Below, in pieces: positions 1-59,353 of a stretch of 64,000 nt of DNA. Positions within the stretch are counted from its first letter, which is position 1; the number at the start of each line of letters is the position of its first letter. A program made the translations under genes and the position numbers. The stretch lies in contig QYRS01000003.1 in NCBI GenBank assembly GCA_006503535.1, positions 4,650,001 through 4,714,000 on the forward strand, written 5' to 3'. The notes below the pieces were generated by a model. The model ran no database searches. It saw only the letters and a list, made by a program, of their open reading frames with translations, and was not told where the DNA came from. The DNA comes from Arthrinium phaeospermum (Eukaryota > Ascomycota > Sordariomycetes > Amphisphaeriales > Apiosporaceae).

Positions 1-3000
1 CCGCCTGCGCCGCCAGCTCGACGGGGAGCCAGCTGAGCGGCGCGTCCCCGAGGTCCGGCAGGCAGCCCGTGAAGCTCGCAGTCGACAGCATGAGGGGATA
101 GGCCTCGCTCCCGTTCCAGATGCCCATGTTATTCGCGAAGAGCTGGCCAACGCGGATGATGGATACCGGAGGCTGAAAGGCCAAACCATCTTGGTGGTTC
201 ATTTCCCCTTGTTTCTCTTCGGTGACGTACTTGTCGTGGGCTGCGGCGCATATGCCCTCGGCCACCCACTTGGACCGCGCATACCCCAGAGGCGCCGCGT
301 CGGTCGGGTCCCGCGAGACCTCCTCCGCGATGCTCCCCGACGGCGACGACGCGTTGTTATTGATGACGGCCGCCGTGGAGCTGACGAGGTAGAAGCGCGA
401 CCGGCACTCCGCGGCGAGCCGGATCAGGTTCCGCGTGGCCGCAAAGTGCTGCCCGAACGAGCCGATGCGCAAGCTGAAGTTGACGGGCCAGGCCGCATGG
501 ATCACGACCGCCGGCTGGTCCCGCACGATGCGCTCGAGGAGCCGCGGGGCCAGCCCCAAGTCGGGGCGGTCCAGCTCGCTCGGCAGGCAGACGATCCGAC
601 CCTCGAGCCAGCGGGTCTCGTCCCAGGCCTCGAGGCGGTCTAGGCCTCGCTTCGAGAGCGACTGGGAGACGCGGTCGTGGGCGGCCGAGGGGCTCGGCGC
701 GCGGACAAGGCAGTAGATCCGGCTGATGCTGTGATCTGTCAAGAGGTAGTGGGCGATGTGGGCGCCGAGTGCGCCGGTCGCGCCCGTCAGAACGACAGTG
801 ATGCCGCCGCCGCCGATGGGTTCCGACCGTCGGCGGAACTGCAGATCGTCAAAGTCGCTATTCTGCTGCACCAAGTCTCGCATCAACGCCAAGTCGGCAT
901 CCGTCACTTTACCGCCGAGCCCATCTTCTCCCGACTGCTTCCGCCGGACTCGCAGCACGTACTCCACCAACTCGTCGATGGTGCCGCAGTCGTAGATGAC
1001 GTTCATCGGCAGCGGCGCCGCCCCGTCCGGCAGCAGGTCGCGCTCGATCGCCTTGCGGACCTGGATGCAGGCAATGGAGTCCACGCCTTGCCCGTACAGA
1101 TCGTGGGAGGGGTCCAGATCCTGGCGGCCTAGTACCTGGGCGAATCTTTCGGCGATGGCCGCCGGGACGTCATCATCATTCGAAACGTACTGAGAAGAAG
1201 TGTTCCCCGCGGATCCTCCTCCTCCTTCGTACGCCTTTTCGATCAGGTCGCCGTACTGTTCTTCGGCTTGCCGGCGCATGATGGTCCCCTTGCTGCTTTT
1301 GGGCAGCGTCCTTTCCACCCCGTCCGTCCCCGACAGGACCACGACCAACATGGACCGGGTGAGACGCGCATGGCCCGGCGAGTCCTGATTCAGCTTCTGT
1401 ATCGCCGGCCACACCGCGTCTACCACCTCGAACTCCGACGATGCCCGACCGTCGCTCGGAAATAAAAGGGCCCCCGGGTAGTCCCTCCCTCCCCCAAAGA
1501 CCAAAACGTCCCGCAAGTGCCGCGCCGACGCGGCCGCGAGGACGGCGCCCTCGAGCGGCGACGGGTCAAACTTCTTGCCGTTGGCCAGCGTGATCTGGGC
1601 GTCGGACCGGCTGTGGTAGCGCCACGCCCCCGGGATGGACGAATGCGGCGCGAACAGGTCGGCCGTCGCGTACGACCCGTCAGCGCGGTTCGTCTTGGCC
1701 CGCAGCGGCCAGCCGGACCGCGCGACCAGCTCCGACAGGCTACCATCGTCTCCACGGGGCTCGAAAGCCAGGATACCACCGTCGTTTTCATTCTTCGAAA
1801 CCACGCCCGCGGCGGGCCGGAGGAACTGCCACTCCTTGTCGGTCGCGTAGTCGCGGTGCGAGGACAGGAGGAAGCCGCACTCGGCGCTGCCCATGCGCGA
1901 GACGAGGTTCACGTCCTGCCCGACCAGCCGATCCCCGACGGCGGCCGGCAGCGCGGCGCCGCCCACGCCGACCAGGTCCATGGACCGCAGCAGCCGGAGC
2001 CCGTCGGCGGACTCGGACAGCATCTGCAGCACGTACGGCACCGAGGTGAAGTAGCCCACTTTCACCTTATCCAACTTGGCCGATGACGAGTTCGAGTTCG
2101 AGTTCTCGTCGGCCACGCAATGCTTCCTCGCGCACTCGACCGCCCTGACGACGTTGGCCCCCGTGACGGGCGCGACGCCCTCGGGGAAACACCAGACCGC
2201 GGCCCCCGCGGCCCAGGCGCGGAAGCAGTCGGCCAGGCCGCCGTGGTAGAGCGGCGTGGTCGAGAAGGTGGCGGGGCGGTTCGCGGTCGGGGCCGGGGCC
2301 AGTCGGGGCAGGATGCCGACGGCGCCCCAGTGGCTCTGGCGGATGGGTTTGGGCAGGCCGGACGAGGTGCCCGAGGTGTGGCGGAGGTAGGCGACGTCCA
2401 GGTTCTTTCGACGGTCCGTCGAGGCCGACGGGGTCGACGGGTGGTAGGAGTAGTCATTATTGTCAGAAGAGAAGATGGGCGATCTGTCATAAGAGGGGAT
2501 GTCTAGTATGCTGAGTATTCCTCTCAGGCCTTCTACCTTGTCGTGGTACATCCGATCCACGAATATGGTGTCCGCGCCCGACGTCGAGCACAAGTGTACG
2601 ACTGCCTTTTCTTCCAATTGGGGCCTGTATTCTCAGGGTTAGACGAGTGGCCCATGTATCTTTTTCCATATCATACTCATGACTTACGCCAAAAGAAAGA
2701 CGGTATAGCCCAGTCGCATAAGTCCCAGCCAAGTGAAGATGAAATCCAGGCTGCTCGCGCACATCAGTCCGATGGTGCCTTTCGCGTCAGGGGTATCCCG
2801 CCGCTGCCCCAAGCGATTGCTTAACACTGTAGCCGCACGGCATGAGAGCTGTTTCAGTTCCCCAAACGTCACTTGCGGCGGATGCTCATCGCTGAAGTCG
2901 GCAAACCCGAGGGCGGGCCCATTCGGGATATCTCGTCCTTGATCGTCTATTAACTCGAGGACGGTGGAGAACTCGGTGGGTTGCTGGGTCGGTTGGTCGC

Positions 3001-3061
3001 TCTTCCACAGAGCCGCTTCGCCGAGGGTGCAGGTGAAGTAGTTCATGTCCTGCGACTCCAT
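1..3061 (-). CDS. NRPS-like A-T-R enzyme (adenylation, carrier, thioester reductase), 3' end cut by window edge
   Basis: Exon 1 is 3061-2688 and exon 2 runs from 2624 off the left edge; the 63-bp intron 2687-2625 starts GTAAGT and ends CAG. I read exon 2 through without a stop, giving about 999 residues. The adenylation domain (about 1-560) has core motif HTSGTSSGLPKPI, SRMGSAECG, a YATADLF version of A7 and the A10 lysine in LPKSSKG. The carrier domain has GQGVDSI with the pantetheine serine near residue 641. The reductase domain has the NADPH loop TGATGALG near 737 and a YARSK (YxxxK) pair near 905/909; the frame leaves the window just after SWLPVEL, so probably fewer than about 100 residues are missing. 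No condensation or thioesterase domain is visible. It should activate a carboxylic acid, load it on the carrier and release it reductively as an aldehyde. In cyanobacterial mycosporine clusters the NRPS-like partner (MysE) ends in a thioesterase; here a reductase takes that place. The divergent AKR next door could finish the reduction to an alcohol. Substrate is inferred. Confidence 0.85.
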
Positions 3062-3594
3062 GGCTTATTATTCACAAGTAGAACCAGCGCGATCTCAATC
3101 TGAAAGTCAAAAACACTGTATTTAGATACTAAAGGTCTAAGCCCACCAGGGTTGCTTGGTGTCGCTTGAAGACTGGCAATGGTGGTGTCGGGGGCATTCC
3201 CCCACATGCCGACTGCATCATGGCCGGCCGGAGCCGCGCATACCAGAGAAGCCACATCGAAATTTGATTTCAAGCCGTCATATACCACCCAAGAGAGGAA
3301 CTCGAGAATGAACTAGGAGCAGCGAGGTGTGCTTCGGGCCATTATGAATGCTAGGCATGGTTATGACGTAATCGACTTGCAGGCGGTGCCTCACGCCAAC
3401 TCCACCAAGACCTGCACATGCCAGCAAGCGTCAAGCCTACTTGTACAGGCGAGGAAACAGAGAGAGACAGGGCCACAGGCACTTGGCACATCTCCACCAA
3501 ATCATTGGACGAGCTGAAACCGTGCCTGAGCATACTCGACCCCTCCCCGATCAACTTTAAACAACAACACCATCACCAAAACAAAACCCCAAGA
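3062..3594. promoter_or_regulatory. Divergent promoter region between NRPS-like gene and AKR
   Basis: This 533-bp gap separates two start codons facing away from each other, so it must hold both promoters and supports shared control of the NRPS-like gene and the aldo-keto reductase. The AKR start is preceded by a CA-rich leader typical of fungal 5' UTRs. I see no convincing coding frame. Confidence 0.5.
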
Positions 3595-4513
3595 ATGACG
3601 AAAAGGGCCATCACCGACACCATCCGCCTGGCGAGCGCCCGGCCGATCCCGCAGCTGGGGTTCGGCGTGTACAAGTCGCCGCCGGAGCTGTGCATCCAGT
3701 CGGTGCTGACGGCGCTGCGGTACGGCTACCGCCACGTCGACACGGCGCAGTACTACGCCAACGAGGCCGAGGTGGGCCAGGCCCTGCAGCTGACGGAGCT
3801 CGTCGACCGGGCCGACGTCTTCCTGACCACCAAGATCCTCACCCCCGAGGGGTCGGCCGAGGAGAACTACCGGAAGTGCGTCGAGAGCGTGCGGAAGCTG
3901 GACGCCTCCGGGGAGGATGGGTATGTGGACTTGTTCCTGATTCACAGCCCCAACTGCGGCGGCGCCGAGAAGCGCAAGATGCTCTGGCAGGCGCTCGAGC
4001 GGCTGCACAGGGAGGGCAAGGCAAAGAGCATCGGCGTCAGCAACTTTGGCATCCAGCACATCGAGGAGCTCAAGGCGTTTGCCGAGGTCTGGCCGCCGCA
4101 CGTCAACCAGATCGAGGTAAGCAGGTTACTTCACCAGTCCCAGTCTCCGTCTCAATAATACTGACTGATTCCCCTCCAAGCTCCACCCGTGGTCGCAGCA
4201 GACGGAAATCGTCGAGTACTGCGAAAAGCAGGGCATCGCCATCGAGGCCTACTGCCCGCTCGTCCGCAACACCAAGGCCGAGGACCCGACCCTGGCCAAA
4301 GTGGCCGGGAAGCACGGGGTGACGCCGAATCAGGTGCTGGTGCGGTACTGCCTGGAGCGGGGCTGGATCCCGCTGCCCAAGAGCGACAACACGGAGCGCA
4401 TCGCCATGAACGCGGATGTGTATGAATTTGCATTGGATCAGGAGGACATGGCGGCGCTGAACGGGCTGGACCAGGGGGCGGCGGGGGCGATTGTGCAGGC
4501 GGTGTCGAATTAG
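3595..4513 (+). CDS. Aldo-keto reductase
   Basis: Two exons, 3595-4116 and 4181-4513, separated by a 64-bp intron (GTAAGC...AAG with CTGAC branch site), give 284 residues, a usual AKR length. The catalytic tetrad is visible: Asp49 and Tyr54 in VDTAQYY, Lys80 in LTTKIL, His117 in LIHSPN. Downstream are SIGVSNFG, the spliced NQIELHPW and the NADPH-binding LPKSDN segment. The start at 3595 sits in an adenine-rich context (AAGAATG) and directly precedes the conserved (beta/alpha)8 barrel start. The family reduces aldehydes and ketones with NADPH. Lying head-to-head with a reductase-terminated NRPS-like enzyme and tail-to-tail with the ATP-grasp gene, it probably converts the released aldehyde to a primary alcohol; that role is inference, the fold assignment is not. 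Confidence 0.9.
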
Positions 4514-4700
4514 AACGTAGTAGCGACGGCACTTGAGATCTTATGAAATCAATGGTCAAGATCTATATGAATTGATCGAGTAATTGTGTTGATCACCATG
4601 TACATTAGGTATTTAATCTGCTATTTGGCTCAATTGACTACGTGCCGAGTCTTTATCTAACACTTGACAACATATCCCCCCTGCCACACGTTCACGATGT

Positions 4701-6338
4701 CTAGCAGCCAAACATCTTGGTGGTGCTGACATTGACCCGGCTCCACCGCTGGCCCCGCCACCAGGCATCCAGGATGCTCAGCGGCCAGTACGCGTGGTAG
4801 AGCGCGACCGCCGGCAACGGGTCCCAAGCCTCCCACGTGCCTTCTTTCCAGGTCAGCACGTGGCTGAAGAAGGCGAGAAGACCGACGAGGAACGCCTGGA
4901 GCGTGAGGCGGCCGGTCGCCAGCCGGTAGGCCGGATGCACGACCAGCGACACCAGGTCGTGCCCGATCCAGTACCGCGACTCCGCGTCCGCCGGCGGCAC
5001 GACCAGTTCCAATTCACTTTCGCCGTTAGTATTGCCGTTGACGCTCTTGGACGGCCCGACGGCGGACAGGTAGGCGCGGACCATGTCCCGCATCTCGGGC
5101 CCCGGCCGCGCGAACAAGACGACGGCGGTGTGGGCGCGGGGATTGCACTCGATCGCGTACATGCCGCGCCGGAACCCGTCCTCCGCGACCCCGTCGTCCT
5201 CGACCATGAAATCAAAACTCAAATGCCCCGTCATCTCTTCCGGAGTATCCGACCGCGCCACGAACTCGCGCGTGAACCGCAGCATGGCTTGGAATAACGC
5301 CGAGTCGGCCGGCAGGGGCCGGTAGTGCATCAGCAGCTCGGCGCTGGGGCAGGCGGCGAAGCAGCGCACCTGGCCCCGGACCACGAGGGCGTGGGTGCAG
5401 TACTCGGCGCCGCCCGGGACGAACTGCTGCACGATCCAGGGGTTGGCGGCGGACACGGGGAGGAGGGCGAGGTGTGTCTCGGTTTCTTGGGGCGTGGCGA
5501 GCGGGAGGAGGGTCATGTTGCCGCGGTTGGCGTCGTCGACGCCGATGGGCTTGAGGATGAACTTCTTCTGCTTCTTCTGCTGCTTGCCGTCGCTGGTTTC
5601 CTGGTCGGCCACCGAAGAATCGTCGAGGATGCGCAGGATCTCCCGCTGCGACGTCACGGTGTGCGTCTCGGGGCAGGGCAGCCCTAGCCGCGCCGTCTCC
5701 CGCATGAACGCGTCCTTCTCGTGCAGCCGCATCGTGTTCGCGAGGTCGAACTGGATGCACCTGCACCCGGTGCGCCGCTCGATGGCCTCTTTCGCTACGG
5801 CGTCCTCGGCCGCGCTCGCCACGCCCGAGCACGAGACCCAGAGGTCCACGCCGTCCGTCCGGACGATGTCGACGAGCCGCTCGACGTACGCGTCGGCGGC
5901 GGCGCCCGCCTTCTTGGAGCTGCTGCTGCCACTAACGGAATGGTGGTCGGGCTTGGGCATGCGGTAGAAGGCCGACAGGCTCCGCGACGAGCGGCCCGAG
6001 CACGGGATGCCGGGGGACTCGAAGTCGGCGCCGATGACGCGGTGGCCGGACAGGTGGAAGGCGCGCGCCAGCGTCAGGCCCTTGGCCATGCCGACGCCCG
6101 TCACCAAGACGGTGCGCCGGTCTCGCGCATCTTCTTCTTCTTCCTCGTGGCGGCGCTGGTCGGGAGAGCCCGGTGGGCCGGCGGCGACGACGACGTATTG
6201 GGCAATGCGGCCGAGGCACAGGGCGAGGAGCGACAGCGGCAAGAGTAGGATGCTGAGAATAGCGAGACTGAAAGTCCGCAAGGTGTCCGACATGGGATAG
6301 CCCGCCATGATGACTGCGAGGTCTGAAGCTATTCCCAA
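4701..6338 (-). CDS. ATP-grasp ligase, membrane anchored, mycosporine (MysC-like) type
   Basis: A single uninterrupted frame of 545 residues. A hydrophobic segment (about 23-45) near the N terminus looks like a membrane anchor. It is followed by an acidic linker, a Rossmann-like pre-grasp segment (TVLVTGVGMAKG, 77-88), the ATP-binding lysine region (FILKPIGVDD, 260-269) and the metal/phosphate end of the grasp fold (IECNPRAHT, 397-405). A second hydrophobic stretch (about 479-496) lies near the C terminus. ATP-grasp enzymes form amide or C-N bonds through acyl- or enol-phosphates; in mycosporine biosynthesis the family member joins an amino acid to 4-deoxygadusol. With a DDGS-type cyclase and O-methyltransferase alongside, this is the expected ligase. 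Starts at residues 11 or 16 (6308, 6293) are possible and keep the anchor. It ends 187 bp from the convergent AKR. Confidence 0.8.
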   Translation of the reverse strand: MGIASDLAVIMAGYPMSDTLRTFSLAILSILLLPLSLLALCLGRIAQYVVVAAGPPGSPDQRRHEEEEEDARDRRTVLVTGVGMAKGLTLARAFHLSGHRVIGADFESPGIPCSGRSSRSLSAFYRMPKPDHHSVSGSSSSKKAGAAADAYVERLVDIVRTDGVDLWVSCSGVASAAEDAVAKEAIERRTGCRCIQFDLANTMRLHEKDAFMRETARLGLPCPETHTVTSQREILRILDDSSVADQETSDGKQQKKQKKFILKPIGVDDANRGNMTLLPLATPQETETHLALLPVSAANPWIVQQFVPGGAEYCTHALVVRGQVRCFAACPSAELLMHYRPLPADSALFQAMLRFTREFVARSDTPEEMTGHLSFDFMVEDDGVAEDGFRRGMYAIECNPRAHTAVVLFARPGPEMRDMVRAYLSAVGPSKSVNGNTNGESELELVVPPADAESRYWIGHDLVSLVVHPAYRLATGRLTLQAFLVGLLAFFSHVLTWKEGTWEAWDPLPAVALYHAYWPLSILDAWWRGQRWSRVNVSTTKMFGC

Positions 6339-7307
6339 CGTCGTGGTTGCGATGAGACTCGTGGTACAGGAGCGAGTAAGTGTGCGACCGAACGGAACCT
6401 GTAATCAACGAATTATCAACTAGGTTGCTTTAGATCCCGATCTATCGCTTATTTCTCCTACACAGTGCACACGGCCGAGTGAGCACGACATCCAAGAACT
6501 GAGCGGGTCCTCTTGTCGGGTGGGTGGGACGGCCTACTAAACGAGCCTCCACGGGTTCGCGGCTGAGAACGGGTAGCGATCTGGGCCTAGCTGGGTAGTA
6601 TGGGCCGCTAGAAAGGCCATCGATCGCGGATGGTGTGCAGTAGTTTAGGATACTGTAGGCCCTAAGTAGGAGGCCCGGTCCAGAGCCGCTTGGCGTCGAC
6701 TACTGGCGTGATCTACCGACCAGCACCAGTGGTAGTCCCGCTGGATCTGAGTTGATGAATCATGGGAAATCTGTCGGCTGTCCACCACCTCAACATTCCC
6801 ATTCCTCAGGAACGCCTGGTGTTTCTTTTTCTTCGAAGCGAGCATGCACTTCTGGCTTGGCGGGTCGGAGTATGGAGTACGTCATGACTTTGACCACCGC
6901 GCATGCATGCCAACCAGCCGACATGGGGGGCGCGCATACGTCGGAGTGAAACATCCGGGACGTCACGTACATACGCGGGGAACCGCAACGCAATACTGAC
7001 CCAATGCAGGAAGAACGACATTTCACGATGATTTTTGGGGCATGTTACTTGGCCCAACATAGTTGGTCAGATTGTGTTGTAGAGGTAGTAAGGGTTGGGA
7101 AGACAACGCTATTTTATTTAACTCTTTTTGAAAATTCTAAGACCAGCGCACCATGGCGACAGCTGAGTCTCTACACATTATGATAATAATCCCCTTGATA
7201 CTCCGGAAAATTCAATGTCCTGTCAGGACCCCATTTAGACCCCTTCGTGATAATCGCTATGCTACTTTCGTGAACTGTGTCTTCAAAATGCAAGTCCGAT
7301 GGGCTAT
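6339..7307. other. Intergenic, ATP-grasp promoter and DDGS 3' flank
   Basis: No frame here has coding character; the short ORFs overlap on both strands and have no recognisable motif. It must contain the promoter of the ATP-grasp gene and the terminator of the DDGS gene. A TTTTATTTAA stretch near 7110-7122 lies beyond the DDGS stop and could belong to its 3' flank. Confidence 0.4.
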
Positions 7308-8810
7308 CTATGCCTGGACCTTGATGCCGTTAGAGCCGCCGTTCAGCAAGCCATTGGCAGCCGTCTTGGCCTTCTCGAGGAGGGACTCGTTGCCGTTCGC
7401 GTGACCGTTGGCATGGCCGTTGGTGTGGCCATTGGTGCCGTTACCGTTCACGCTCTGTGACTCGGAAATGACGCCGGCCTGCTTGGCGGCCGCCTCGACG
7501 CCGAGCTCCTCGGTCGCGTTGTCGGTGTAGCCCGTGTCGCTCTGGTCGACGTAGGCCTCGAGCCCGGCGCCCTCGCGGGGGTAGGTCTTGCAGGCCGCCT
7601 TGTGCAGGCGCAGCGTCTCTTGGAGCTCCTCGACGGAGACGTCGTTGAGAAACGAGCAGCTACCCAGGGGGTTGGGCACGGCGAGGCGGAGCAGGCCGTC
7701 GCGGGTCTTGAGGATGGCGGCAGTGCCCTTGTCGACGACGTCGTCGTCGAACAGGGGGTGGTCGATGGACAGGCCGGCGCGGGAGAAGAGGGTGAGCAGG
7801 CGCGTGTGTTCGGCGTCGGAGAGCAGACCGCGCTTCTTGGCGAGGGTGGCGGTGAAGGCCATGTCGATGGAGATGGCGTGGCCGTGGCGGAGAGGGGTCT
7901 CGGGGATGAGCTCGTGCAGGGGCGACCAGGTGTGGCCGTAGGCGATGACGCGGTCGAGACCGATCTCGTGCAGGTTGGGCGACTCGAGCTTGAGCATCTC
8001 GTAGATGGCCTCGCGGTTGTTGATGTCGGCGGCCGTTGTGAGCTCGCGGGTGGCGCCGTCGCCGCGGCCGAACTTGTGCTCGATGAGCTGCTCGCAGAAC
8101 TTGTCGAGCAGGTCGAAGACCTGGAGATGGGAGCACGACGAGATCTTGATCAGCTCGGCGAACCCGTTGCGCACCTGGGCAATGGGCAGGGTCCGCAGGA
8201 AGGTGAAATCGAGGAAGGTGTGCATGGGGGCGTGGTAGGCGCCGAGGCGGTTCTTGTAGTTGCCGTAGTTGACGGCCACCTTGATGGAGACGCTGGCGTC
8301 GATGAGGCCGATGACGGTGGTGGGCACCCGGATGAAGTTGGTGTTTCGCCGGTAGGAGGCGCAAGCGAAGCTGGATTGCATGTCAGTAAGGTGCCATGTT
8401 TCTTGTAGTTCCTTTATTAAGTTGTAGACTCACCCAGCAACGTCAGTAACGAGACCGCCGCCAACAACCAGCACGGGCTCCTTGCGGATGATGCCGAACT
8501 CGGTCATGGAGTCGCAGATGCTCAGGTACGTGTCGATAGTCTTGGCCTTCTCGCCGATGGACGTCTTGTGCACCTTGAGGGTGAGGCCGTAGTGCTCAAA
8601 GTACTTCTCCATCTTCTTGCCGTACATGCTGAAGACGTTCTTGTCCGTCACGGCCAGCACGCGGCCCCATTTCTTGTAGCAGTCGGCCAAACCCGTGTTG
8701 TTGATGTCGAAGACGCCATCCACAAAGGTGAAGTCGTACTCGATCTTCTCGTAGCCCTCGACGTGGAAGCCCGCCTTGGTCTCCGAGACGTTGGCCTTAA
8801 GATCAGACAT
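7308..8810 (-). CDS. Sugar-phosphate cyclase, desmethyl-4-deoxygadusol synthase (DDGS) type
   Basis: Exons 8810-8434 and 8370-7308 around a 63-bp intron (GTGAGT...CAG) encode 479 residues. The protein has the dehydroquinate-synthase fold signature: NAD loop VVGGGLVTDVAG (115-126), RVPTTVIGLIDASVSIK, and the metal ligands expected from the family, Glu198 in GFAELIK, His272 in AYGHTWSP and His288 in LRHGHAIS. It differs from true dehydroquinate synthases in the last motif (HGHA in place of HGEA) and is a stand-alone protein rather than part of an AROM pentafunctional enzyme. Cyclases of this subgroup turn sedoheptulose 7-phosphate into desmethyl-4-deoxygadusol or 2-epi-5-epi-valiolone. The adjacent O-methyltransferase and ATP-grasp favour the DDGS role. 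The last 55 residues are a Gly/Asn/His-rich low-complexity tail absent from the catalytic core. Confidence 0.88.
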
Positions 8811-9793
8811 GTTGAATGGGATGGGAAAGCAGTGATGGTAGGGGTCAGGAGCGGAGGGTCAGGGAAGAAGATGCTAATACACCTAATGTGTGATTGCTGG
8901 GATCTGAGGAAGGACTGAGAGGAGAAAGGATGATGGGGATGGGACAATGAAAAGCCCATGTTGGATGCCGGCCAGTGGCCTTCAAGTAATGGCGGTTTCC
9001 CATCCCAAAGAGTACCACATCGCCGAGTCAATTCGTCATGATATCCAGTCATTGACACGACGACTCTTTGTCGAGTACTGCAACCGAATGCCATTGGCAT
9101 TAGCCCACGCGCCATTCGCGCCGTCCCAATGGCTGCCTGTCGTACTGAAATGTGTTGAGACATTGCTTATTTGCATGGCGTGGATGGTGTTGCAGCCCCT
9201 GGCGCTAGCATCAACGGGGGCTAGCAGGGGGCTAACCGAAAGGTATGGAGGGGGCCAAGATCCGGATGGGAAAGCTCCAAAATGCCATTCCCAATCAAAT
9301 GGCCATTCCCATAGTCGGACCTTTGACCGGACCAAGCCCCCCGCCCTCTCGCCTATCTGAATTCGGTCGCTAGGCCCTCGCGCTAGCGTAGAGCTGGTCA
9401 TGGCGACGTATAGCAGCTACAGGAAAGCAGGTGGGGGCCCGAAGGCTCGCTTGCGCCCGGCGCCCGAGTCGATGACTTCAAGACACGAGATGGTGACACC
9501 CTCGAATCCTTAGCAGCGAAAAACGCGTCGCAAGTGCAATTTCCCTCGGCTGCAAGCGGGGGGCATCCTGACAGGTATGTAGATCCTGGACCGAAGGGTA
9601 GCTGCCGACTGTTGGCTGGGAGACTAGGTAGTAGGAGCCGTAGTAATGAGCGAGCTTGGGCATGGGAAGTTGACAGGCACGCGAATCTGACTTAGAACAC
9701 CATCGTTAACAGATTCTACATGCAGATAAGTGAAATTCGACTCCATCGCCCTCAATCAGAGTCTCCAAGAAGCTATCAATACATCACACCACA
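8811..9793. promoter_or_regulatory. Divergent DDGS / O-methyltransferase promoter with three GCTAGC palindromes
   Basis: A 983-bp gap between the start codons of the cyclase (minus) and methyltransferase (plus). It contains the palindrome GCTAGC at 9204-9209, 9220-9225 and 9382-9387, the first two only 16 bp apart, plus CCCCT/AGGGG stress-element-like pentamers around 9196-9232. I see no coding frame. Shared control of the first two pathway steps is the obvious inference; no factor is known for these sites. Confidence 0.45.
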
Positions 9794-10797
9794 ATGAGTA
9801 GCACACTAAAGCAAGCCGACTTCAAGGGGCAGGCGTATCAGACCCAGGAAGATGTCTACGTACGTGCATCCCCAAATCGCATCTAGTTCTCTTCTTCTTG
9901 AGCTTTACAGTTGAATTGACCTCAATAACCACCCAGTTTGACGATGGCCGCGAGATCGCCTTGCTGCACTTCATGTACAGCCACCCGAAACTCGAGGAGC
10001 TGCGAGGCCACCCCCAAAAGGTCCTCGACGCCATCGACGAGTACGGGCGCACCCAAAAGTACCTCATGAACATCGGCGAGTACAAGTCCAAGACCGTCGT
10101 CGACCTCATCCGCAAGGAGAAGCCGCAGGTCATGCTGGAGCTGGGCGGCTACGTCGGGTACTCTGCCATCGCCTTTGGCGCCGCCGTGCAGGAAGCGGGC
10201 GGGAAACGCTACTTCAGCCTGGAGAAGAGCCCCGAGTTCGGCGCCGTGATTGCCATGCTCGTCGATCTGGCGGGGCTGAGCGATGTCGTTAAGGTCATCG
10301 TCGGGAGTAGCTCCGACTCTTTAAGGCGGCTTCACAAGACGGGCCAACTCCAGCACATCGACCTCCTCTTCCTCGATCACTATAAGCCCCTCTACACCGA
10401 AGACCTGAAGCTGTGCGAAGAGCTCGGGCTCGTGGGGCCTGGATCCGTTTACGCGGCCGACAATGGTGAGTGATCTCTCGCGCGAAACACTCAAAGTTAT
10501 ATCGTGCTGCGGAAGACTAATGCGGTGTTACCAGTTGTCAAACCCGGAAACCCTCCGTACCTCGAGTATGTCCGCAGCACCGTCGAGCAAAAGCGCCAGA
10601 AGGCGTCGAGCGCCAATGCCAACGGGCCCAAGGGACGACCCGAGCTCGTGTACGATAGCAAGTTCGTCGAGGGCTGGGAGCCTAGCGGTGTACCAGTGAG
10701 TTAATGCGACACAGCCAACATCACCTCCGAATACTTTTTGCTAACGGTTTCATAGGATGCGCTCGAGATTACACGATGCGTACGAGTCGAATCATAG
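9794..10797 (+). CDS. SAM-dependent O-methyltransferase, catechol-OMT-like
   Basis: Four exons: 9794-9859, 9937-10465, 10535-10695, 10756-10797 (introns 77, 69 and 60 bp, all GT-AG), giving 265 residues. The start at 9794 follows CACCACA and opens an exon of 22 codons. The SAM motif LELGGYVGYSAIAFG lies at about 89-103, followed by the acidic SLEKSPEF strand and LLFLDHYKPLY, the metal/substrate loop of class I, COMT-type methyltransferases. The splice at 10465/10535 restores AADNVVKPG, a normal COMT segment, which supports the model. In mycosporine pathways the methyltransferase turns desmethyl-4-deoxygadusol into 4-deoxygadusol; its pairing with the cyclase across one promoter fits that step. 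Confidence 0.88.
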
Positions 10798-11597: not shown

Positions 11598-12794
11598 ATG
11601 GCGGCCCCTCGTACATCCACTCAGCGATATGCTTACGTAACCCTCATCACGCGCGCCAGCTACCTGGCCGGCGTGGTGCTGCTGGCCGACACGCTGCGGC
11701 GCCACGGCAGCCGGCACCCGCTCATCGTGCTCTATACGCCCAACCTTTCGACCGACGCCGTGCGGGCGCTGGAGCTGGAGGCGCCGCGGCAGAACCTGGT
11801 CCTGCGGCGGTGCGAGCCCCTGCTGCCGCCGGGGGATGCCAAGATCACCCTGATCGCCCAGCGCTTCGAGGACACCTGGACCAAGCTCCGCGTCTTCGAG
11901 CTGTGCGTCGACTACGACGTGGTCTGCTACCTCGACGCCGACATGGCCGTCTTCAACCGCAACATGGATGCCATTTTCGAGAAGGCGGAAAAGGAGCTGC
12001 CAGAAGGCTGGCTGGGCGCCAACCACTGCTGCGTCTGCAACCGGGACAAGGACCCCTGGGCGCCGGCGGATTGGCGATGGGAGAACTGCGCTTACACGCC
12101 CGTCTCGCACCCCGGCGGGCTGACCCAGCCCACCCAGCCGCCGAGCAGCGACGACGGCAACGACGAGGACGACTTCAAGCCCATCGCCGCCTTGGATGAG
12201 GGCTCGTCCCGAACACACCGGCTGCTCAACGGCGGCATGTTCGTCTTCCGCCCCACGCCGGCGCTGCGCGATTCCCTGCTGTCCTTCTTCCACACCAACG
12301 CGGCCCTGCTGTCGACCTTCAAGTTCCCGGACCAGGACTTCCTGGCGCACTTCTTCCGGGGGCGGTGGCGGGCTCTGGGGTGGCAGTACAACGCCCTCAA
12401 GACGATGCGGTACTGGCACGGCGGGCTCTGGCGCGACGACGAGGTGGTCTGCCTGCACTACATCGTCGACAAGCCCTGGACCCGCCGCGTGGGCGCGGAC
12501 GGGGTCGCTGGGTACAAGGGCCGGGACGGGGCGACGCACCAGTGGTGGTGGGACGCCTACGAGAGGTGGGAGGAGGAGCGACTACTAGGGTGCAGCGGAA
12601 AGACGGCGGAAAACGAGGGGGCGGTGGGTAGGGAGGTGGTGGCGCTCGTTCGTAAAGGGGTGGCCCCGCCCCTGGGGGTTTCGGACGGATGGTTCGAGGG
12701 GGACGATCCGGATCTGCAGGCCATTGGGGCCTCGGTCCAGGGGTTCGCCCACAACCAGGCCCCGTCGTCGCTCGAGGTGGCCACCGAGGCTTGA
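11598..12794 (+). CDS. Family 8 glycosyltransferase (galactinol synthase / glycogenin-like)
   Basis: Intronless, 398 residues from the ATG at 11598 (AACATGGCG is a better context than the in-frame ATG-like start 24 bp upstream). It begins with RYAYVTLITRASYLAGVVLL, the nucleotide-sugar binding strand of GT8 enzymes, has the metal-binding DAD triad at 113-115 in CYLDADMAVF, a middle block with LLNGGMFVF and DFLAHFF, and the late HYIVDKPW motif typical of the family. It has no signal peptide or membrane span, so it is cytosolic. GT8 enzymes of this shape transfer a hexose from UDP-sugar to small acceptors (inositol) or to protein tyrosine. It lies 0.8 kb beyond the methyltransferase in the same orientation. 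Because fungal mycosporine-glutaminol is known as a glucoside, this is a candidate tailoring enzyme; a galactinol-synthase-like or glycogenin-like housekeeping role is the alternative. Confidence 0.85.
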   Translation: MAAPRTSTQRYAYVTLITRASYLAGVVLLADTLRRHGSRHPLIVLYTPNLSTDAVRALELEAPRQNLVLRRCEPLLPPGDAKITLIAQRFEDTWTKLRVFELCVDYDVVCYLDADMAVFNRNMDAIFEKAEKELPEGWLGANHCCVCNRDKDPWAPADWRWENCAYTPVSHPGGLTQPTQPPSSDDGNDEDDFKPIAALDEGSSRTHRLLNGGMFVFRPTPALRDSLLSFFHTNAALLSTFKFPDQDFLAHFFRGRWRALGWQYNALKTMRYWHGGLWRDDEVVCLHYIVDKPWTRRVGADGVAGYKGRDGATHQWWWDAYERWEEERLLGCSGKTAENEGAVGREVVALVRKGVAPPLGVSDGWFEGDDPDLQAIGASVQGFAHNQAPSSLEVATEA

Positions 12795-20693: not shown

Positions 20694-21095
20694 GGGGGTG
20701 ACGGAGTGTTGCGTCGCACCACAGACAAAGGACTCGTTTCTGAAAGGGCCAGGGATTGAGCAGACCCAACTGCTTGGGTACGCGCCGCCCGACATCCGAT
20801 CGTTGCTGTTTTCTAATTATGGCGCAGCATTGCATTGCAATGACCCAACTGATGCACCGTGACGACGACAACGAACCAATCATGTAATCCGGGTGTGCGA
20901 CCCCTGCTCTACTGGCCCAAAGCGGCGGCCAACGCGATTACGGCACAGTCATCAGAAGTTCTTTCATTCCCAGAGGCTCAGTCATGGAAGCGAAATGAAA
21001 AGTTCTTTGTTTCCAGATACTTCACCTTGTTCTCAAACACAATGTGCAGAGCAGAATTTGTCGTTGATCGATCCATCGAACCTCCTCTGGCCATC
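20694..21095. other. Intergenic, no gene seen
   Basis: About 400 bp between the ferric reductase stop and the preferred start of the next gene. The frame of that gene is open from 20859, but the extra N-terminal residues look non-coding. Confidence 0.35.
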
Positions 21096-22454
21096 ATGCG
21101 ATCTTGTACCAGGCTGCGAAAGCTGTTGCTAGCCGCGACCCTTCTTACTGTCTGTTTCTATTGGTCAGCCTACCGCGTCTGGTATTTTCCGTGGGTGGCC
21201 GCCAGGCCTAATGCTTCTGTTTGTCCAGAATCTCCCTTGCTTGAAGACATCCTGGTAGTTCTTCGGAAGCATGCCACCGGGAGCCGCGGCAAGCTCCCCG
21301 TCCAACTAAGGACGGGTTTCACCTGCATCCCAGATTTTGTGGTCTACTCGGACGCTGAAGATGGCAATGCCGAGCATCGCATTCAGGACAACCTCGATGA
21401 TGTAGACGAGAAGGTCGGGCTTTCCAACCACGACTCTGACCGATACAACAAGGTCCGGGTTGCGGGTAGGAAGAATCACAACCACCAGACCCCGCTCGGA
21501 AGCGGTGGCCGAGGTGGCACGGGCAGCCCCGGGTGGAAAGTCGATAAGTGGAGGTTTATGTTGATGGCGGACAGGGCCTTGCGTCGTCGGCCAGACGCGA
21601 AATGGTTCGTTTTCATCGAAGCAGACACCTACTTGGTTTGGCAGAACATGCTCGAGTGGCTGTCCAAGTTTAATCCAGAACAGCCTCACTATCTGGGAGA
21701 TTCCGTGCTCGTGTTCTCCAACCCGGCCATACGGAATGCATTACATAGATGGAAAGAGACGAATGCAGAGACCGAGACCGACACCACAGAGCAACCGGCT
21801 GAAGACATTTTCTGGACGTTTCCCAATTCTGAGGGGAGCAGTCTGACTACGATGGACTGGAGTGTTTTCAAATCTGGCCAGGGATTGTGGTGCTATGCGC
21901 CGACAGCTTTCCACCACACGAGCACCCTGGAATTCGAGGCGCTCTGGAAGTTTGAGCAGCGGTGGCTAACCGGCCATCCGCACATCACCCCCAGATTTGG
22001 AGATATATTCAAAGGCGTGATCCTGCCCCAGCTTCGCGAAAGGCGAGACTCATGGAACAACATGGCGGCTGGTATTGAGCACAGCGAGGAGACGTTCGAG
22101 AAGCTGTCCGAGGAGGACCGCGATGCCTTGACGTATGCGGAGCGGCAGGCCCCGGTCTCCTTTGAGGGTTGCCGCACACTATGCGAGTGCAAACGCGACT
22201 GCATCCAGTTTTCCTTCTCTGCGGGCACGTGTGTTACGTCCACGGAACTTCGTCTCGGACACGCTGCCTACTCGCCCTGTCTGGAATCCTCCAACGCTGC
22301 TGCCAAGTGCCTCAAACCTGCCGGGCCCAGAAACGGTACGCTGAGCAGTCCAGACCAGTTTATCCTGGCAGGCTGGATGATGGACAGGGTTTCCAACTAC
22401 ATAGAGGACCTGGATAGTTCTTGCGCGCTTGTGGCAGATAGATGGATATCATAA
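21096..22454 (+). CDS. GT31-like (fringe-type) glycosyltransferase, internally shortened paralogue
   Basis: 452 residues from 21096, where MRSCTRLRKLLLAATLL gives a type II membrane anchor matching the start of the paralogue at 59354. The luminal part has the fringe-like FVFIEADTYLVW (EAD at 175-177 in place of DxD) and an apple/PAN-like Cys-rich C terminus. Compared with the 59.4-kb protein it lacks the segment corresponding to its residues about 228-241 (the GHGG part of the GHGGSGYV motif) and the CCGD block, where it instead has a Glu/Thr-rich insertion. Those parts bind donor and acceptor in the paralogue, so this copy is probably catalytically altered or inactive even though its frame is open. 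Unannotated introns cannot remove this, since the missing motifs are not present in other frames nearby. Confidence 0.7.
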   Translation: MRSCTRLRKLLLAATLLTVCFYWSAYRVWYFPWVAARPNASVCPESPLLEDILVVLRKHATGSRGKLPVQLRTGFTCIPDFVVYSDAEDGNAEHRIQDNLDDVDEKVGLSNHDSDRYNKVRVAGRKNHNHQTPLGSGGRGGTGSPGWKVDKWRFMLMADRALRRRPDAKWFVFIEADTYLVWQNMLEWLSKFNPEQPHYLGDSVLVFSNPAIRNALHRWKETNAETETDTTEQPAEDIFWTFPNSEGSSLTTMDWSVFKSGQGLWCYAPTAFHHTSTLEFEALWKFEQRWLTGHPHITPRFGDIFKGVILPQLRERRDSWNNMAAGIEHSEETFEKLSEEDRDALTYAERQAPVSFEGCRTLCECKRDCIQFSFSAGTCVTSTELRLGHAAYSPCLESSNAAAKCLKPAGPRNGTLSSPDQFILAGWMMDRVSNYIEDLDSSCALVADRWIS

Positions 22455-49765: not shown

Positions 49766-52700
49766 TCACTGGAAAGGGTTGACGTCCACCACCTTGTTGA
49801 GACCTTTCTTGACAACCGCCACTTCCCCTTTCACAACAAACAATATATCGCCCAGCTTCGTGATGCTGATGAGAGGCTCGTGGTGCGTACGGAGCCAGTC
49901 GACCGGCGGGGCGAAATGAAACATCAGCTTCTCACCACCTCGACCTCTCATCCCGTTGGCCTTGATAGAGCATATCCACCCTTCTCTGTGGAGAAATACC
50001 AGACGGTCACGAAACGTTCCTACGACCAAGGTGATGGGCTCGGCGTGATTCCGACACTCGGGCAAAGCAGACACTGCCTCCGCCCCTATGGTGAAGCTAT
50101 TGGCTGGAAAGCACATTCGAGATCCCCCGGTATGTATCCCTTCTGCTGCAAACGAGATCATAAGCATAGTGTTGGTATTGGCAAAGGTGGTAGACGCCTT
50201 CTGGATCCTGGGGTTGGCAGGGTGTCCTTCCAGAAGAGACAAACCCCCTGGTACCGTCCAGTCTATCTCCAAATCTGCCCACTTGTGTAGCCGAACTTTC
50301 GTTGCCGTAAGGTACAGTAATGAAGAAGGGTCTTTCGGGTGTTGTGCCCATAGATGGGGTTCGCTGTCCGGATCTTCGCACCCGAGTAGCGCGGTCTCCC
50401 GTCCGTCAAGGGCAGAGCAGACGACTGCTTGGTCCTCGGAGCAGATCAGGATAAACGAGGAGTCTGGGCTGCACAAGAACTGCCTCACCCCTTTCAAAGA
50501 GACGTGATGCTTCCATAGAAGCTTCGCGACCCATTGCCCAGCTTCTCGGGCGACATCGTGCGCCATCATGAAGCCGTCGGTGTCCACACTGAACAGAGTC
50601 CGGCGCAGCTTGGTTTTCCCGCAGTGCAGGGCCTTGATGGACGAGACATGGGAGAATAGAGTCCCAAGAATAGTACCGTTCTTGGTCTCGTGGACTGCCA
50701 CAGTCGAGTCCTCCTTGCCAACGAAGAACACGTCGCCATCTGTGTCGGTAGCCAGCGCAGATATGCGAGAAACTTCGGCCTCTTGCCTTTCATACGCGCC
50801 GTCCTGGCTCCCACTTCCCAAGGACGGGGATCGCACGCTTTCATGGCCAACATCCCTGCGAAAGAGCGAGACGGGACTCCAGACGCTGCAGTTGCGAGTA
50901 CCGGCTCGGATGACCAGAAAGCGAGTATTGTCTGAAGCAAAAGCCAACGACGCCACGGCGCCATCGCTGGGACGTATGCGGTAGATCTTGTGCAGCGTTT
51001 CAAAGTCATACAGCTCAATGGCCCCGTCATTTCTCGCAGCAGCCAGTGTCCTCCCATCTGGTGAGGAAACGAGGGTGGAGAAGGTCACGGAAGACAGTCT
51101 CGCGACCACGTTGCCGGCCTCGGTGTCAAACAGCACCAGCTCGGCCGTGCCGTAATTCACCACCAGCAGAGACGTATCCGGCAACCGGCTGAAGGTCATG
51201 CAGTAAATTTGGATGATTTTCTCCTGTTCGACGTCGTCCGAGAGCCCCTTCTCGTGATCAAACACTTGATGCGACTCCGACTCGTAGTTGTACACCAAGA
51301 CACTCCGACACGTGTAGCCGACCGCAAGAAGACCCAGATCCGTGTTGAAAGTGGCGCACTGCGGAGCAATGCCATTGTACCAGTTCCTGTACGGGTCGTC
51401 GAGGTTGTCGGTCCAGCTGGTGGCCTCGAACGTGCGGCTGATCAGGTTCAAGGCGAGCAGGGTGTTGTTATGCAGGGCCACCAAAAGCAGCTGGTCGTCG
51501 TCCACAAAGTGCATGGCCAGGCAGTTGTACCTTGTATTGAGCTCCCACTGCTTCTCCCACGTCTCGGTGTTCCATATCCGAACGATGCGTTTCCCGAAGC
51601 TTGCTAGTAGCGGCCGCGAGGTAGCAAAGTGGACATGGGTGACGGGACCACCATGGGATATCGTCTTTTCTTCGAGACAAGTCTTATCGTTGAATATACA
51701 TATCCGTCCAAGAGATGTTCCAATGCAAAATGCATTATCGGACACGCCGATCGAGTGAAGTCTCTCGCGCCTCGCCGCGCCAGAGGCGCTGACTGTGGTC
51801 GGATCACTGGGTATGACGGCACACAAGTAGTCATCCCAACTCTTGTTTGACAGGCCGCGCACTTGAAGTGCTGCTGAAGTGCCCAAAGAGGCAAACTGGG
51901 TATATGGCGCTGACTCGGTGGGACAGAAGGGCGGCACGAGGTTTAAAATGGACTCCGGGTGGATCAAAAGCTGCCTGCTAAACTTGCCAACCAGTCGGAC
52001 AAGGTCCGTCGCCCATGCGTCGACAACAATGACCTCATCACCCAACAAGAGGTTGACGCGGGACTTCCGGCGCAGGAAGAGCTTGAGGACTTGGGCCATC
52101 TGCAACACGGTGTCCAGCTCACCCATGCTGGCCAGATGTTCGATCCAGTGCAGCACGTTCGTCTTGAGGAACAGAGCAAGCGACTCGAGCATGTCAGGGT
52201 CCGATGCAGAGCACTTGTTGACATGTTCATGCAGAGCCGTACACGCATACGAGGCGAAAGCGGATTGTTCATGAGCAGTAGCCACCATTTTGCGCTTTTT
52301 GGCCTTGAGCTCGGGACCATTCAAGTAGCCAAGGCAGGCCATACCCAGCGTCTTGTTCGCAACCTCTTCGTCGATTGTCAGGGCGTCAAACTCCGAGTTG
52401 ATGTCTCTGCGCATGAGGAAGCGGGTGGCACTAGAATGACGCATTTTGACACGTGAGCTCTCGTCCACGTAGACCAAGTCATAGCAATACTGGGATATGA
52501 TGGATTCGACGTCGCTGATATCGTCGTCGGTCTGGCTTTCGAGGACAAACTTCAATTCCGCCGTGGTCAGGGGCCGAACAGCGCATGTGACCCAAACAAG
52601 AATCTCCTGAGTCAGACCGTCCTTGTCTGGCATGGTTTGCAGGATTCGCGCGTAGAGCTGATCCATACCTGGCGGGGTTTCCTCGAGTGCTCTCAGGCGG

Positions 52701-54685
52701 GCTTGAGAGCCAGGAATGCCCCGTAGCCGTCGGAGCACAAGGACAACCCAGAGGAAGCACCCATTCGACTTCTCAAGGACAAGCTCTTTCAGCCTACTTC
52801 TCTCCCGTTTGGTTGCACCTTGAAGTTCGTGCTCTGTAGCGTCGAGATACCTGGCAATGTCTCCCTGAACATCGGGTATGTGGATGTCTCGAGGTGTGAC
52901 GGACGTTGGGGGAATGAGGTAATGTGTGAAAGGATGCCTGGATGTCGCGATGATTCTCACAAGGCCTTTTGACTTCTCCCTAACACGGAGCAGGAACTTT
53001 GCCAGCTCGGGCCCAGCGCGGCATTCGTCAATGGCATCCACCACCAGATACGTTGCTTGGTTCCCAAGCGAAGCTCGAAATATCCCTTCGTCCCAGAGCT
53101 TCCTATGCAGAGTCCTGTAATCGCCCGAGGCCGCACCTGGGTCCCTCCTGCAGATCTGGAGAATCCGTCGCCTCACATCCGGATGCTTGGACATCTGCCA
53201 TGTGATAGAGAGCAGGAAGCTCTCCATGGACGACCTAGCCTTGTCGCCGTGCCTGAAGAAGTAGTAGCAACATCGATTCTTGGCTAGCTCAAGCTCCTCC
53301 ACGATGTGGCCGGTCAGATAGGACTTGCCACATCCGGGTGGGCCTCGGACCCAGAAGATGCTAGACTGCGTAGCATCTTGCAACCACTTGCAGTAGTCGT
53401 CATCCACGCAGAGCCATTCGCAGGTTCCCGGGTGACGGTCAGCTCGAACGCGGTGCAGCTCATCTGCAGGGGGCTCCCATACGCCGAGAAACTCGCTGAT
53501 TTCGGTGTCGCTCTGGTAAATGCTGCTAACGGGCGACGCGGTGGCTTCCATGTCCACTTTGGGTCCGGCGCTATCTGGTAAACATGAGGATATGGCTTGC
53601 CATATGGCAATAAAGTTGTGTTCATCCGCGGACTCAAACTTGCACACGCTCCGGTGGTCCCCATATAACAGAGCAGACTGTTCATGGGCATAGTTGAGGA
53701 TCGCGTCCACCTTAGGGACGATCATGACATCTCTTAGCCCCCCCAGGCTGAGAGGCTCTGTTTCATAGAAGGAGTGAAGCATCAGATCTGTTGAGTGAGC
53801 TGGGAACAGCGTATTAATCGTCTGTACCGTATCCGAGTTGCGTCGTAAGTCTTCGAGGTATGGTTTCAGCCCCGAAGTCATGCGGAATATCCTGTCGAGT
53901 ATCGGTGCCAACTCAGATCCCGTGTGCGGGGTTGCAATAAATACTATAGCCTTGATCCTTCCTGAAATGTCCTTGTATACCGTCATCTGTTTGGCAAGTA
54001 TATAGGTCTGCTTCATGATCAGACCGCCCATACTGTGGCCAACGAGAATGATGGGACTCTGTTAGGCTGTCAGCGACGGATGGTATGAATCATTTCCACA
54101 TGCATAGATCTGTTCAACAAGCTGGCTTGTGTTTGCTCCTTGCTCAGGGTGACGTGATGGGATGAAGTGAATGAGAAAGGGGGCACATACGTTTGACTCG
54201 TTGACGACGGGATTGTTGAGCAGATTATTAAGCAACGACTTGGAGAAATCTTGAATGTTCAAGGTGCTGCTCTTTTTGAAGTTCGAATCGTACCCAAAGA
54301 TGTGAACGCTAGTTTGCCTGAAAGGTGGCTGTTTCGGAAGCAGGTCGCGTGGCCAAAGGACGCCATTCTTGGACCAGGTATGTTCAGAGCCTCCACCTAA
54401 GCCGTGTACGAACACGACATGTGCGGTGGCCAAGTCTCCGGACGATGGTTGGTGGACAGTGGTGAGGCCGAGAGGCCCCTTGGTGTTTACGTCACTGATG
54501 CCTGATGACTGAGACGAAGATTGCCGAAGAGTGAAGTGACGTGTAAAGCGGGATCGGTTTGGCAGGGTGGACTGTCTCGGCAAGGAGCCGGCTTCGGACT
54601 GTGACCATCCAGCGCTGGACGAGCGCGAGAGATGATCCTCCGAGCTGGACTGTGTCTGATAGGGCGGTCTTTGCGGGGAACCCAT
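49766..54685 (-). CDS. NLR-like STAND protein: alpha/beta-hydrolase, NACHT, WD40-type propeller
   Basis: Exons 54685-54191 and 54058-49766 around a 132-bp intron (GTATGT...AACAG) encode 1595 residues. Residues 1-85 are Ser/Gln-rich and disordered. The N-terminal effector is an alpha/beta-hydrolase of the PGAP1/lipase type: VVFVHGLGGGSEHTW, the nucleophile elbow LVGHSMGGL with Ser174 and FIATPHTGS; ADEHNFI offers the histidine (312). The intron lies just before the elbow, and splicing restores NESN-SPIILVGHSMGG. The NACHT ATPase follows: WVRGPPGCGKSYL (P-loop 404-411), Walker B TYLVVDAIDEC, then HPFTHYLIPP and the winged-helix region. From about 850 on the sequence has degenerate WD40-like blades (VRIWNTETWEKQW; IELYDFETLHKIY; VFFVGKEDSTVAVHE). 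Such proteins trigger cell death or immunity-like responses on ligand binding in fungi. The frame is intact. Confidence 0.85.
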
Positions 54686-56828: not shown

Positions 56829-59353
56829 ATTTCGACGACGACAAACATGGAGTCCTAGGGTTCATGGGAAGAGTGGTGTGGTAGCGACCGAAGTGATGGG
56901 ATACTGTCTCGAACTTGGCCTTCCAGAAGTTCCATGTATTATTACTGATGTTAGTATTCAAGCCAATCAAGTCGTAAACTAGCCAAGAGTAGCCATGCAG
57001 CTTTATGTAGCACTCTTTCAAATTCATTGCAAGGTCGATCTTGCTGAGCCGGATGAAAGCAACCTGCCGGTCAGCGCCGAGCACGGTGAGTAGGGCTGCC
57101 CGAGGCTGTTGTTGTTGAGCTTCCGACGGCTCGAAACGGGAAGGGACGGGCATGATGGACCGGGCTGGGATTGGGCCAGGAAACTGCGGGCGCGCGTGGT
57201 GCTATGCTTCATGCGACAGGATGGATTACCTTGAAAACCTTGCCCGGAAAAGATCATTTCCCTTGGAATGGAAGCCAGGAAAGTGGTCTGGATCTCTTCC
57301 CGCTACAATCGAGTGTCAGAGAGTCATTAGAGTCATCATCTTGCAGTGCTATCAAGCAAGCTCCCGAATTGTCCAGCGCCGCCCTGAAGTTGGTCGGTGG
57401 CGGGGTAACTCTTAACCTAGTCAGTGAGAGTCGTTTTATGACTTCGCATGAGTTGAGTACGATCGCGCAGAATGCGAGTAAGTTGTGAAGTGCATATGTC
57501 TCTACCTATGTATTTATGCTGTGGTTCGGCGTAGAGAGTCGCAAGTTGATCGAGCCAAATGCGGGGGTGCCTTGGTAACGCACGATGGGGGCAGATGGTG
57601 CATGGTCACGACACAGCCCAAGAAATACGAAAAGCAACATAAGTAACCACTGGTGACCTTCGGATGGGGCAGCTACAGTAGCTTGTCAAACGTCCCAACT
57701 TTAACACGACGACATGCGATCCAGCGGCTCAGACTTCAAAGTCCACACCTCCAAGGCAGAAAGAAGCAACGGGGAGCTAGGGTCCGCAGATAGGATGGCC
57801 AGTTCTAAGTGGTTGCGACGCGAGAAGAGGGTGGGCGAAGAGGTGTCATCTGTCATCTACTGGAACGGTCAGCCTCCCATTTCCACCAGAAACTGGCATC
57901 AAAATGTGAATGGGCTGGCAGAGAAGAATACATGTCATGTTGTTGCATTGTTTCACGCAGCGCACTGAACTCATAAGGGGGCTGATGCGATCCCAACATT
58001 ACGTCCAATCGGGGCGGCGGCCAAGTTTTTTTACACGCAGGAGATTGCCCCGAACGCCGACCCCACGGTTCTCCAGGCGGGCCACTAGAAACCCCTGGCC
58101 CCTGGCGTGTTGGTGCTTTGTGCTTGGTGGTCCTGCATGCGACAAAGTCAGTTGGAGTTAAGCCTAACCAAAGATGCTTCTAGACGCTACTTTATCTGGG
58201 CAGTTTTGCTTGGTTGTCGGTTCTCGCTCGCCATTAACCGAATGAAGAAGAAAAAATGCGACAGCCAACTTGGCTTTTTTCGATGGACCCCACCGACAGG
58301 CAACAGGCGAGACGAGATTGATCAATTGCCAAGCCACGAGATTGGATCAACATAGCTGATGCAGACGAACGCGTACGGCTGCGGCTCCATATTACGTGTT
58401 CACCCCTCTCTAGGCACCCGAGAGCCGATGGCTGTCTGCATCAGAAACATGCGTTGCGTACTGACGGGTGACGTGACTTGTGTCGAAACTGGGTCGCCGA
58501 CGGAGCCCAGAAATCATTTCTCCATGGCATCGCGCCTTTTTCGTTTGGAATGGTTCGTCCCAGCCCGGCGGCTCGGAAGGACTAAATAAGGAAACTGCAG
58601 TTACTCCGGGAAGGAGAGTTGGCGCATGGCAGCTTGAGTTTAGGTGCTGTTGCAACAGTTGCAGCCAGTGAGATGGGAGCTGTCAATGGCTTAGCAGCAC
58701 TTGGCAATTGACACTCGCACGCCATTTGATTGATCCTACGTGACATCTCATGCGAGACTTGCATCTTGGCTAAGTGGGAATGCACCTCGTAATCTCCCTG
58801 CAGCTGCTGACTGCGTGCTGCTTGCCTGCCTTTGAGTGCTTGAACAGAATGCGCACTTCAGTGATCAAGTGGCGCCGGCCGTATCGTATCGCAATGAGCA
58901 TCGCATCCCAGTCATCTGGCAGCAAGCAAAAGCACACTGCATCCAAGCGACCGACTTCTACTCAGCTTGCGACGGGGGTGCCTTGCTCCAGGTGATTTCT
59001 TTGGACGCCATCCACAGCAGCCGCGGTGGTGTAACTGATTTGCAGGATCCCACTTCCCTGTTGGCCGTACCTGCCCACCCAACAGCAAGGCCCCGGATGC
59101 ATCAGCATCAGCAAGGGACGCACCACTCGTCAAACAAACAAATGACACACCAAAACTGCTGGCACTCTAACCACTTCCCGGATCCGTCACACCAACCAAC
59201 ATAACCTAACACCTCGTGTTACGTCTGACCTGCCTTGCCTCGCCTTGCTGCTTTGCCTTGCCTCTTTTCCTTTATTGTGTTCCCTCATTCCTCCAAACCC
59301 TTTTTACTTCTTTTTTTCTTGTCTCGCCCCGCCGACATGTTCCGCTCGACATC
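56829..59353. other. Long intergenic, no gene seen
   Basis: About 2.5 kb with only overlapping short ORFs. A minus ORF starting at 57153 overlaps the kinase 3' end and has no motif. CCTTGCCT-rich and CTTTTTT-rich leader sequence from about 59220 is the likely 5' UTR of the next gene. Confidence 0.35.

Follow-up and report, generated by a model that had tools for sequence, protein, structure and literature searches.

An adenylating reductase gene linked to the mycosporine ligase gene of Arthrinium phaeospermum: a probable carboxylate-to-alcohol extension of the pathway

Introduction

Fungal mycosporine clusters are already known, and the mycosporines that PMC10384724 names from fungi are of amino-acid or amino-alcohol type. 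The MYC cluster of Phaffia rhodozyma (PMC10057719) contains genes for a 2-desmethyl-4-deoxygadusol synthase (DDGS), an O-methyltransferase (OMT) and an ATP-grasp ligase (ATPG), and in Hypoxylaceae NRPS-like (nonribosomal peptide synthetase-like) 'myc' gene cluster families are known (PMC8403587). Here, we analyse a 64,000-bp window of the genome of Arthrinium phaeospermum (contig QYRS01000003.1, C3:4650001–4714000; genome of 48.4 Mb in 19 contigs), where the same three types of gene adjoin two further ones, for an NRPS-like reductase with adenylation, carrier and thioester reductase domains (A-T-R) and for an aldo-keto reductase (AKR). The locus probably represents a mycosporine pathway that is extended by a carboxylate-to-alcohol module and gives an amino-alcohol mycosporine, a reading that covers reduction both before and after ligation.

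As for the Phaffia cluster, the DDGS and OMT genes are divergent in the Arthrinium locus, but in Phaffia the ATPG gene adjoins OMT on the same strand, and the account of that cluster in PMC10057719 describes neither an A-T-R nor an AKR gene. In the Hypoxylaceae families, as in our locus, an NRPS-like gene belongs to a cluster predicted to be mycosporine-like, but the passages on them in PMC8403587 propose no reduction step.

Results

The five genes occupy positions −478 to 10797 relative to the first base of the window, in the order A-T-R (−), AKR (+), ATPG (−), DDGS (−) and OMT (+). The gene models were predicted from sequence, with splice sites placed by eye. Together with Pfam and fold comparisons, they confirm what an earlier note on this DNA had described, five adjoining genes with a DDGS-type cyclase, a COMT-like methyltransferase and two divergent promoter regions. 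The note had placed the cluster at 1–10797; a start at base 1 truncates the A-T-R gene, because its second exon extends 478 bp beyond the left edge of the window. This gene (exon 1 3061–2688, exon 2 2624 to −478, − strand) encodes 1158 residues with the Pfam domains AMP-binding, AMP-binding_C_3, PP-binding and NAD_binding_4, and is separated by a divergent intergenic region of 533 bp (3062–3594) from the AKR gene (exons 3595–4116 and 4181–4513, + strand; 284 residues; Aldo_ket_red, PF00248). ATPG, of the fungal MysC type, is a single exon (6308–4701, − strand; 535 residues), DDGS has two (8810–8434 and 8370–7308, − strand; 479 residues; DHQ_synthase and DHQS_C), and a second divergent region of 983 bp (8811–9793) leads to OMT, a COMT-like protein of 265 residues encoded by four exons inside 9794–10797 (+ strand; Methyltransf_24 and Methyltransf_3). 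The contig ends 128–140 kb from the cluster.

Recurrence of the grouping was assessed by protein searches with A-T-R, ATPG and AKR, considering the best 120 of 785, 1276 and 7997 matches, respectively. Matches are representatives at 90% identity, and two of them were placed on the same contig when the longest contig given for each had the same length; because only such representatives and the best 120 matches are counted, the linkage counts are lower bounds. Among these A-T-R homologues, a listed ATPG is on the contig of at least 36, a listed AKR on that of at least 24, and both on that of at least seven. Contigs that pair ATPG with AKR number at least eight. Ten of the 36 contigs shared by A-T-R and ATPG are shorter than 500 kb, and the crude summed chance for these ten is 0.05 at a genome size of 45 Mb.

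The A-T-R gene is found beside ATPG or on its contig in Apiospora, Pestalotiopsis, Hypoxylaceae (Hypoxylon, Annulohypoxylon, Daldinia and Hypomontagnella), Xylaria, Microdochium and Pyricularia. Gene tags are available on both sides for eight pairs, from five Apiospora genomes, two of Pestalotiopsis, and Pyricularia pennisetigena; the numbers are apart by two in seven pairs and by one in the remaining pair, and that of AKR falls between them in all three genomes where its tag is listed. Since linked homologues recur in other fungi, the grouping is more than chance, and since A-T-R/ATPG adjacency recurs in Apiospora (Amphisphaeriales), Pestalotiopsis and Pyricularia (Magnaporthales), A-T-R is tied to mycosporine assembly in distant orders. 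In a quick A-T-R tree with several weak deep forks, rows linked to ATPG occur across Amphisphaeriales, Xylariales, Microdochium and Pyricularia. Apiospora marii supplies the closest named relatives among the matches listed, with identities of 86% for A-T-R, 87% for ATPG and 94% for AKR.

A different arrangement is seen in 55 A-T-R rows with genus names that we take to belong to Hypocreales, one of them annotated as nrps11 of Fusarium poae. At least 15 of the 55 have AKR on the same contig among the matches listed, and the tagged A-T-R/AKR pairs carry consecutive numbers in nine of nine cases. Fusarium NRPS11, which is referred to as uncharacterised in passages of PMC5483468 and PMC3694855 and placed in the ChNPS12 subfamily in a passage of PMC6480918, is similar to the Arthrinium protein in being a homologous A-T-R, 46–50% identical, with an adjoining AKR, but differs in that its contig carries no ATPG among the matches listed.

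With adenylation, carrier and NAD(P)-dependent thioester reductase (R) domains and no condensation domain, the window protein belongs to the A-T-R class. It ends in NAD_binding_4, with no thioesterase domain found by Pfam, and is therefore not of the A-T-thioesterase type. The NRPS-like mycosporine enzymes of cyanobacteria carry a C-terminal thioesterase, and they attach a second amino acid. In alignments of the window proteins with the best 120 homologues (121 rows each), the carrier serine is present in all A-T-R rows and the R-domain tyrosine and lysine in 120, while the AKR tetrad Asp49, Tyr54, Lys80 and His117 is complete in 121 of 121. By both sequence and fold, the R domain is similar to those of MxaA and of the Neurospora crassa carboxylate reductase (8aep, E 4.6e-21); the latter enzyme has the same A-T-R layout, but a different gene context, and converts simple carboxylic acids to aldehydes. 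In the model used for the fold comparison, which is of the A. marii orthologue, the whole A-T-R protein has both aryl-acid ligases and amino-acid NRPS modules among its fold neighbours; domain packing is uncertain because the predicted template modelling score (pTM) of this model is 0.54.

In adenylation domains that activate amino acids, an aspartate in motif A4 holds the α-amino group. The residue that phmmer aligns to this aspartate of LgrA, in a weak, low-score alignment, is a histidine in the window protein and is retained in 120 of the 121 rows, so the aspartate typical of amino-acid activation is missing at this position. The simplest reading is that the substrate would lack a free α-amino group, as in an assembled mycosporine, a point in favour of reduction after ligation.

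Two reference proteins help to assign the cyclase: its identity is 55% with 5TPR (E-value 3.8e-147) and 36% with ValA (E-value 1.7e-69). It agrees with 5TPR in 97, with ValA in 23 and with neither in 102 of the 222 alignment columns that discriminate the two. In a quick tree built from 72 loci of bacteria, ValA and the dehydroquinate synthase (DHQS) frame of this genome, supported by SH-aLRT (Shimodaira–Hasegawa-like approximate likelihood ratio test) values only, it stands beside cyanobacterial DDGS on a long branch. Of the 30 residues in the stretch by which DDGS was named in Phaffia (PMC10057719, section 2.1), it also has 23. Judged from sequence, the enzyme is thus of the DDGS type and not a DHQS; identities, E-values, discriminating columns and tree together rule out a valiolone synthase, and the grouping with 2-epi-5-epi-valiolone synthases that the earlier note had named as a refutation of its proposal did not occur. 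Past the part aligned to 5TPR, the protein has a low-complexity C-terminal tail rich in Asn, Gly and His (7308–7570, − strand). Scans of viral contigs gave no confirmed DDGS relative.

ATPG has no Pfam match, and single and profile searches of PDB sequences returned no ATP-grasp entry for it. Its model is confident, however, with a pLDDT (predicted local distance difference test) of 84.8, and in a fold comparison it comes closest to ATP-grasp enzymes, among them PurK and GAR synthetase (E down to 1.9e-11). This fold, and a relative near DDGS in each of the 72 bacterial loci, are what identify the protein as an ATP-grasp enzyme. Long hydrophobic helices are present at its N terminus (residues 6–43), and in 96 of the best 120 ATPG homologues the first 70 residues include a segment of 19 residues that exceeds 1.6 on the Kyte–Doolittle scale; the fungal ligase may be membrane-anchored.

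The 72 cyanobacterial and actinobacterial loci were picked by DDGS alone and hence test the ATPG and OMT assignments both, with relatives called by tblastn at E 1e-4. An ATPG relative is found in 72 of 72 loci, at a median distance of 1052 bp from DDGS, and an OMT relative in 62 of 72, at 311 bp. These clusters share the core with the Arthrinium locus, but at that threshold none of the 72 has a match to the A domain or to AKR, and R-type matches are weak and confined to two loci (L062 and L067, 26–27% identity). A linked O-methyltransferase and a linked ATP-grasp ligase, as expected of a fungal mycosporine core, are both present in the window, and the comparison supports the assignment of DDGS, OMT and ATPG as the core set, in agreement with the earlier note. 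Elsewhere in the genome, DDGS has one 26% match, in a long frame that was taken as AROM, and a search for a second ATPG copy found none, while paralogues of A-T-R and AKR are 27–43% and 30–45% identical, respectively.

The cluster is flanked on the left by subtilase pieces and an AA9 gene, and on the right by genes for a GT8 glycosyltransferase, an HsbA protein, a fungal transcription factor domain and a ferric reductase. The GT8 gene (11598–12794, + strand; PF01501), 800 bp from OMT, is a candidate additional member that could serve in glucosylation. GT8 relatives occur in 0 of the 72 bacterial DDGS loci, and the glucosylation gene of Phaffia is said to be located outside the MYC cluster (PMC10057719, section 2.3). 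Four intergenic regions were scanned for the consensus sites of AbaA, BrlA, CreA, AreA and PacC and for a GATC core, in 24 comparisons of 200 shuffles each; there is no convincing enrichment of shared sites, since the lowest counts were 11 and 12 of 200 shuffles. Farther away, the window contains an NLR-like protein with an NPHP3-type nucleotide-binding domain and WD40 repeats (49769–54031, − strand) and two frames for Fringe-like glycosyltransferases (20859–22454 and 59216–60286, + strand).

Discussion

The enzyme classes, the conserved catalytic residues, the gene order and the recurrent linkage of this locus are established; we infer substrates, step order and product of the five-gene pathway from enzyme classes and linkage. 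DDGS would cyclise sedoheptulose 7-phosphate, OMT would methylate the product to 4-deoxygadusol, and ATPG would couple an amino acid. A-T-R would adenylate the carboxylate and load it on the phosphopantetheine arm, its R domain would reduce the thioester to an aldehyde, and AKR would convert the aldehyde to the alcohol, yielding an amino-alcohol mycosporine of the glutaminol, glutamicol or serinol type. Formation of an amino alcohol is the best reading because both the enzyme classes and the linkage fit a carboxylate reduction. That A-T-R and AKR make up a carboxyl-to-alcohol module had been put forward in the earlier note; the recurrence of A-T-R beside the ligase supports the proposal in part, and the missing A4 aspartate weakens the part of it that had free glutamine or glutamate as substrate.

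Several observations weigh against an amino-alcohol extension. Neither partner lies on the contig of 67 of the 120 A-T-R homologues among the matches listed. The Hypoxylon AKR homologue is on a separate contig in four of the four genomes with all three proteins listed, and in Xylaria no AKR appears among the best 120 of 7997 matches. A listed ATPG is found on the contig of none of the 55 Hypocreales homologues. Moreover, expression of DDGS, OMT and ATPG of Phaffia alone in Saccharomyces cerevisiae led to an HPLC peak that co-migrates with mycosporine glutaminol (PMC10057719, section 2.3); either the alcohol is taken care of by the host or by ATPG in that system, or the identity of the peak has still to be confirmed by mass. 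The chief rival explanation is that A-T-R and AKR are an independent pair which reduces an unrelated acid, as might Fusarium NRPS11, while the product of the adjoining three-gene cluster keeps its carboxylate. The Hypocreales pairs, with AKR next to A-T-R in all nine tagged cases, are consistent with this, and the linked ATPGs outside Apiospora (28 pairs) score 544–665 bits while the listed matches go down to 500 bits, so that an ATPG inherited along with the pair in Hypocreales and diverged to the usual extent would be expected among them, although a more diverged one may exist. The report that three core genes suffice in Phaffia (PMC10057719) points the same way. Against an independent pair, A-T-R and ATPG are linked repeatedly, in several families from two subclasses, and more often than ATPG and AKR are, which is not expected of a chance neighbour, and Trichothecium roseum, a species of Hypocreales, is cited as a source of mycosporine glutaminol in a reference title in PMC10384724. 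We regard this explanation as unlikely, though as a serious competitor.

Within the amino-alcohol reading, the order of steps can be assigned only tentatively. A-T-R may be a mycosporine carboxylate reductase whose carrier arm receives the assembled mycosporine-amino acid and which, jointly with AKR, reduces it to the amino-alcohol forms of fungi, and this order is slightly favoured. Alternatively, ATPG would couple 4-deoxygadusol to an amino alcohol, for instance glutaminol, already formed as a free compound by the two enzymes. The scheme of the Phaffia authors, in which ATPG incorporates glutaminol (PMC10057719, section 2.3), and the stand-alone A-T-R/AKR pair of Hypocreales, which may use a free substrate, both speak for such a pre-ligation order. 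It nevertheless appears slightly less likely given the histidine at the expected α-amino-binding position, a point that depends on the weak LgrA alignment, and given the aryl-acid ligases among the fold neighbours. R domains are able to stop at the aldehyde, and the Xylaria contigs pair A-T-R and ATPG with no AKR partner among the matches listed, which would suit a different tailoring in which the aldehyde persists, cyclises or reacts with a second amine to give an imine-type or cyclic mycosporine. We consider this improbable, because in the three genomes with a listed tag the AKR gene is the one that separates A-T-R from ATPG, because in all tagged Hypocreales pairs it is next to A-T-R, and because neither form is among the fungal mycosporines that PMC10384724 names.

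Searches of an open-access library returned no title, abstract start or passage that assigns an A-T-R protein to the amino-alcohol step, most subscription papers being outside that scope, and in the papers searched no gene is given for the formation of the alcohol. The recurrent A-T-R gene beside the mycosporine ligase is a named candidate for the alcohol-forming step of fungal mycosporines. The orphan Fusarium NRPS11 also gains a concrete hypothesis, namely that together with the adjoining AKR it converts an acid to an alcohol. If A-T-R does act as a post-ligation reductase, the A-T-R/AKR pair of Fusarium NRPS11 would either be an alcohol-forming module that serves more than one pathway, or the sign of an unrecognised mycosporine pathway.

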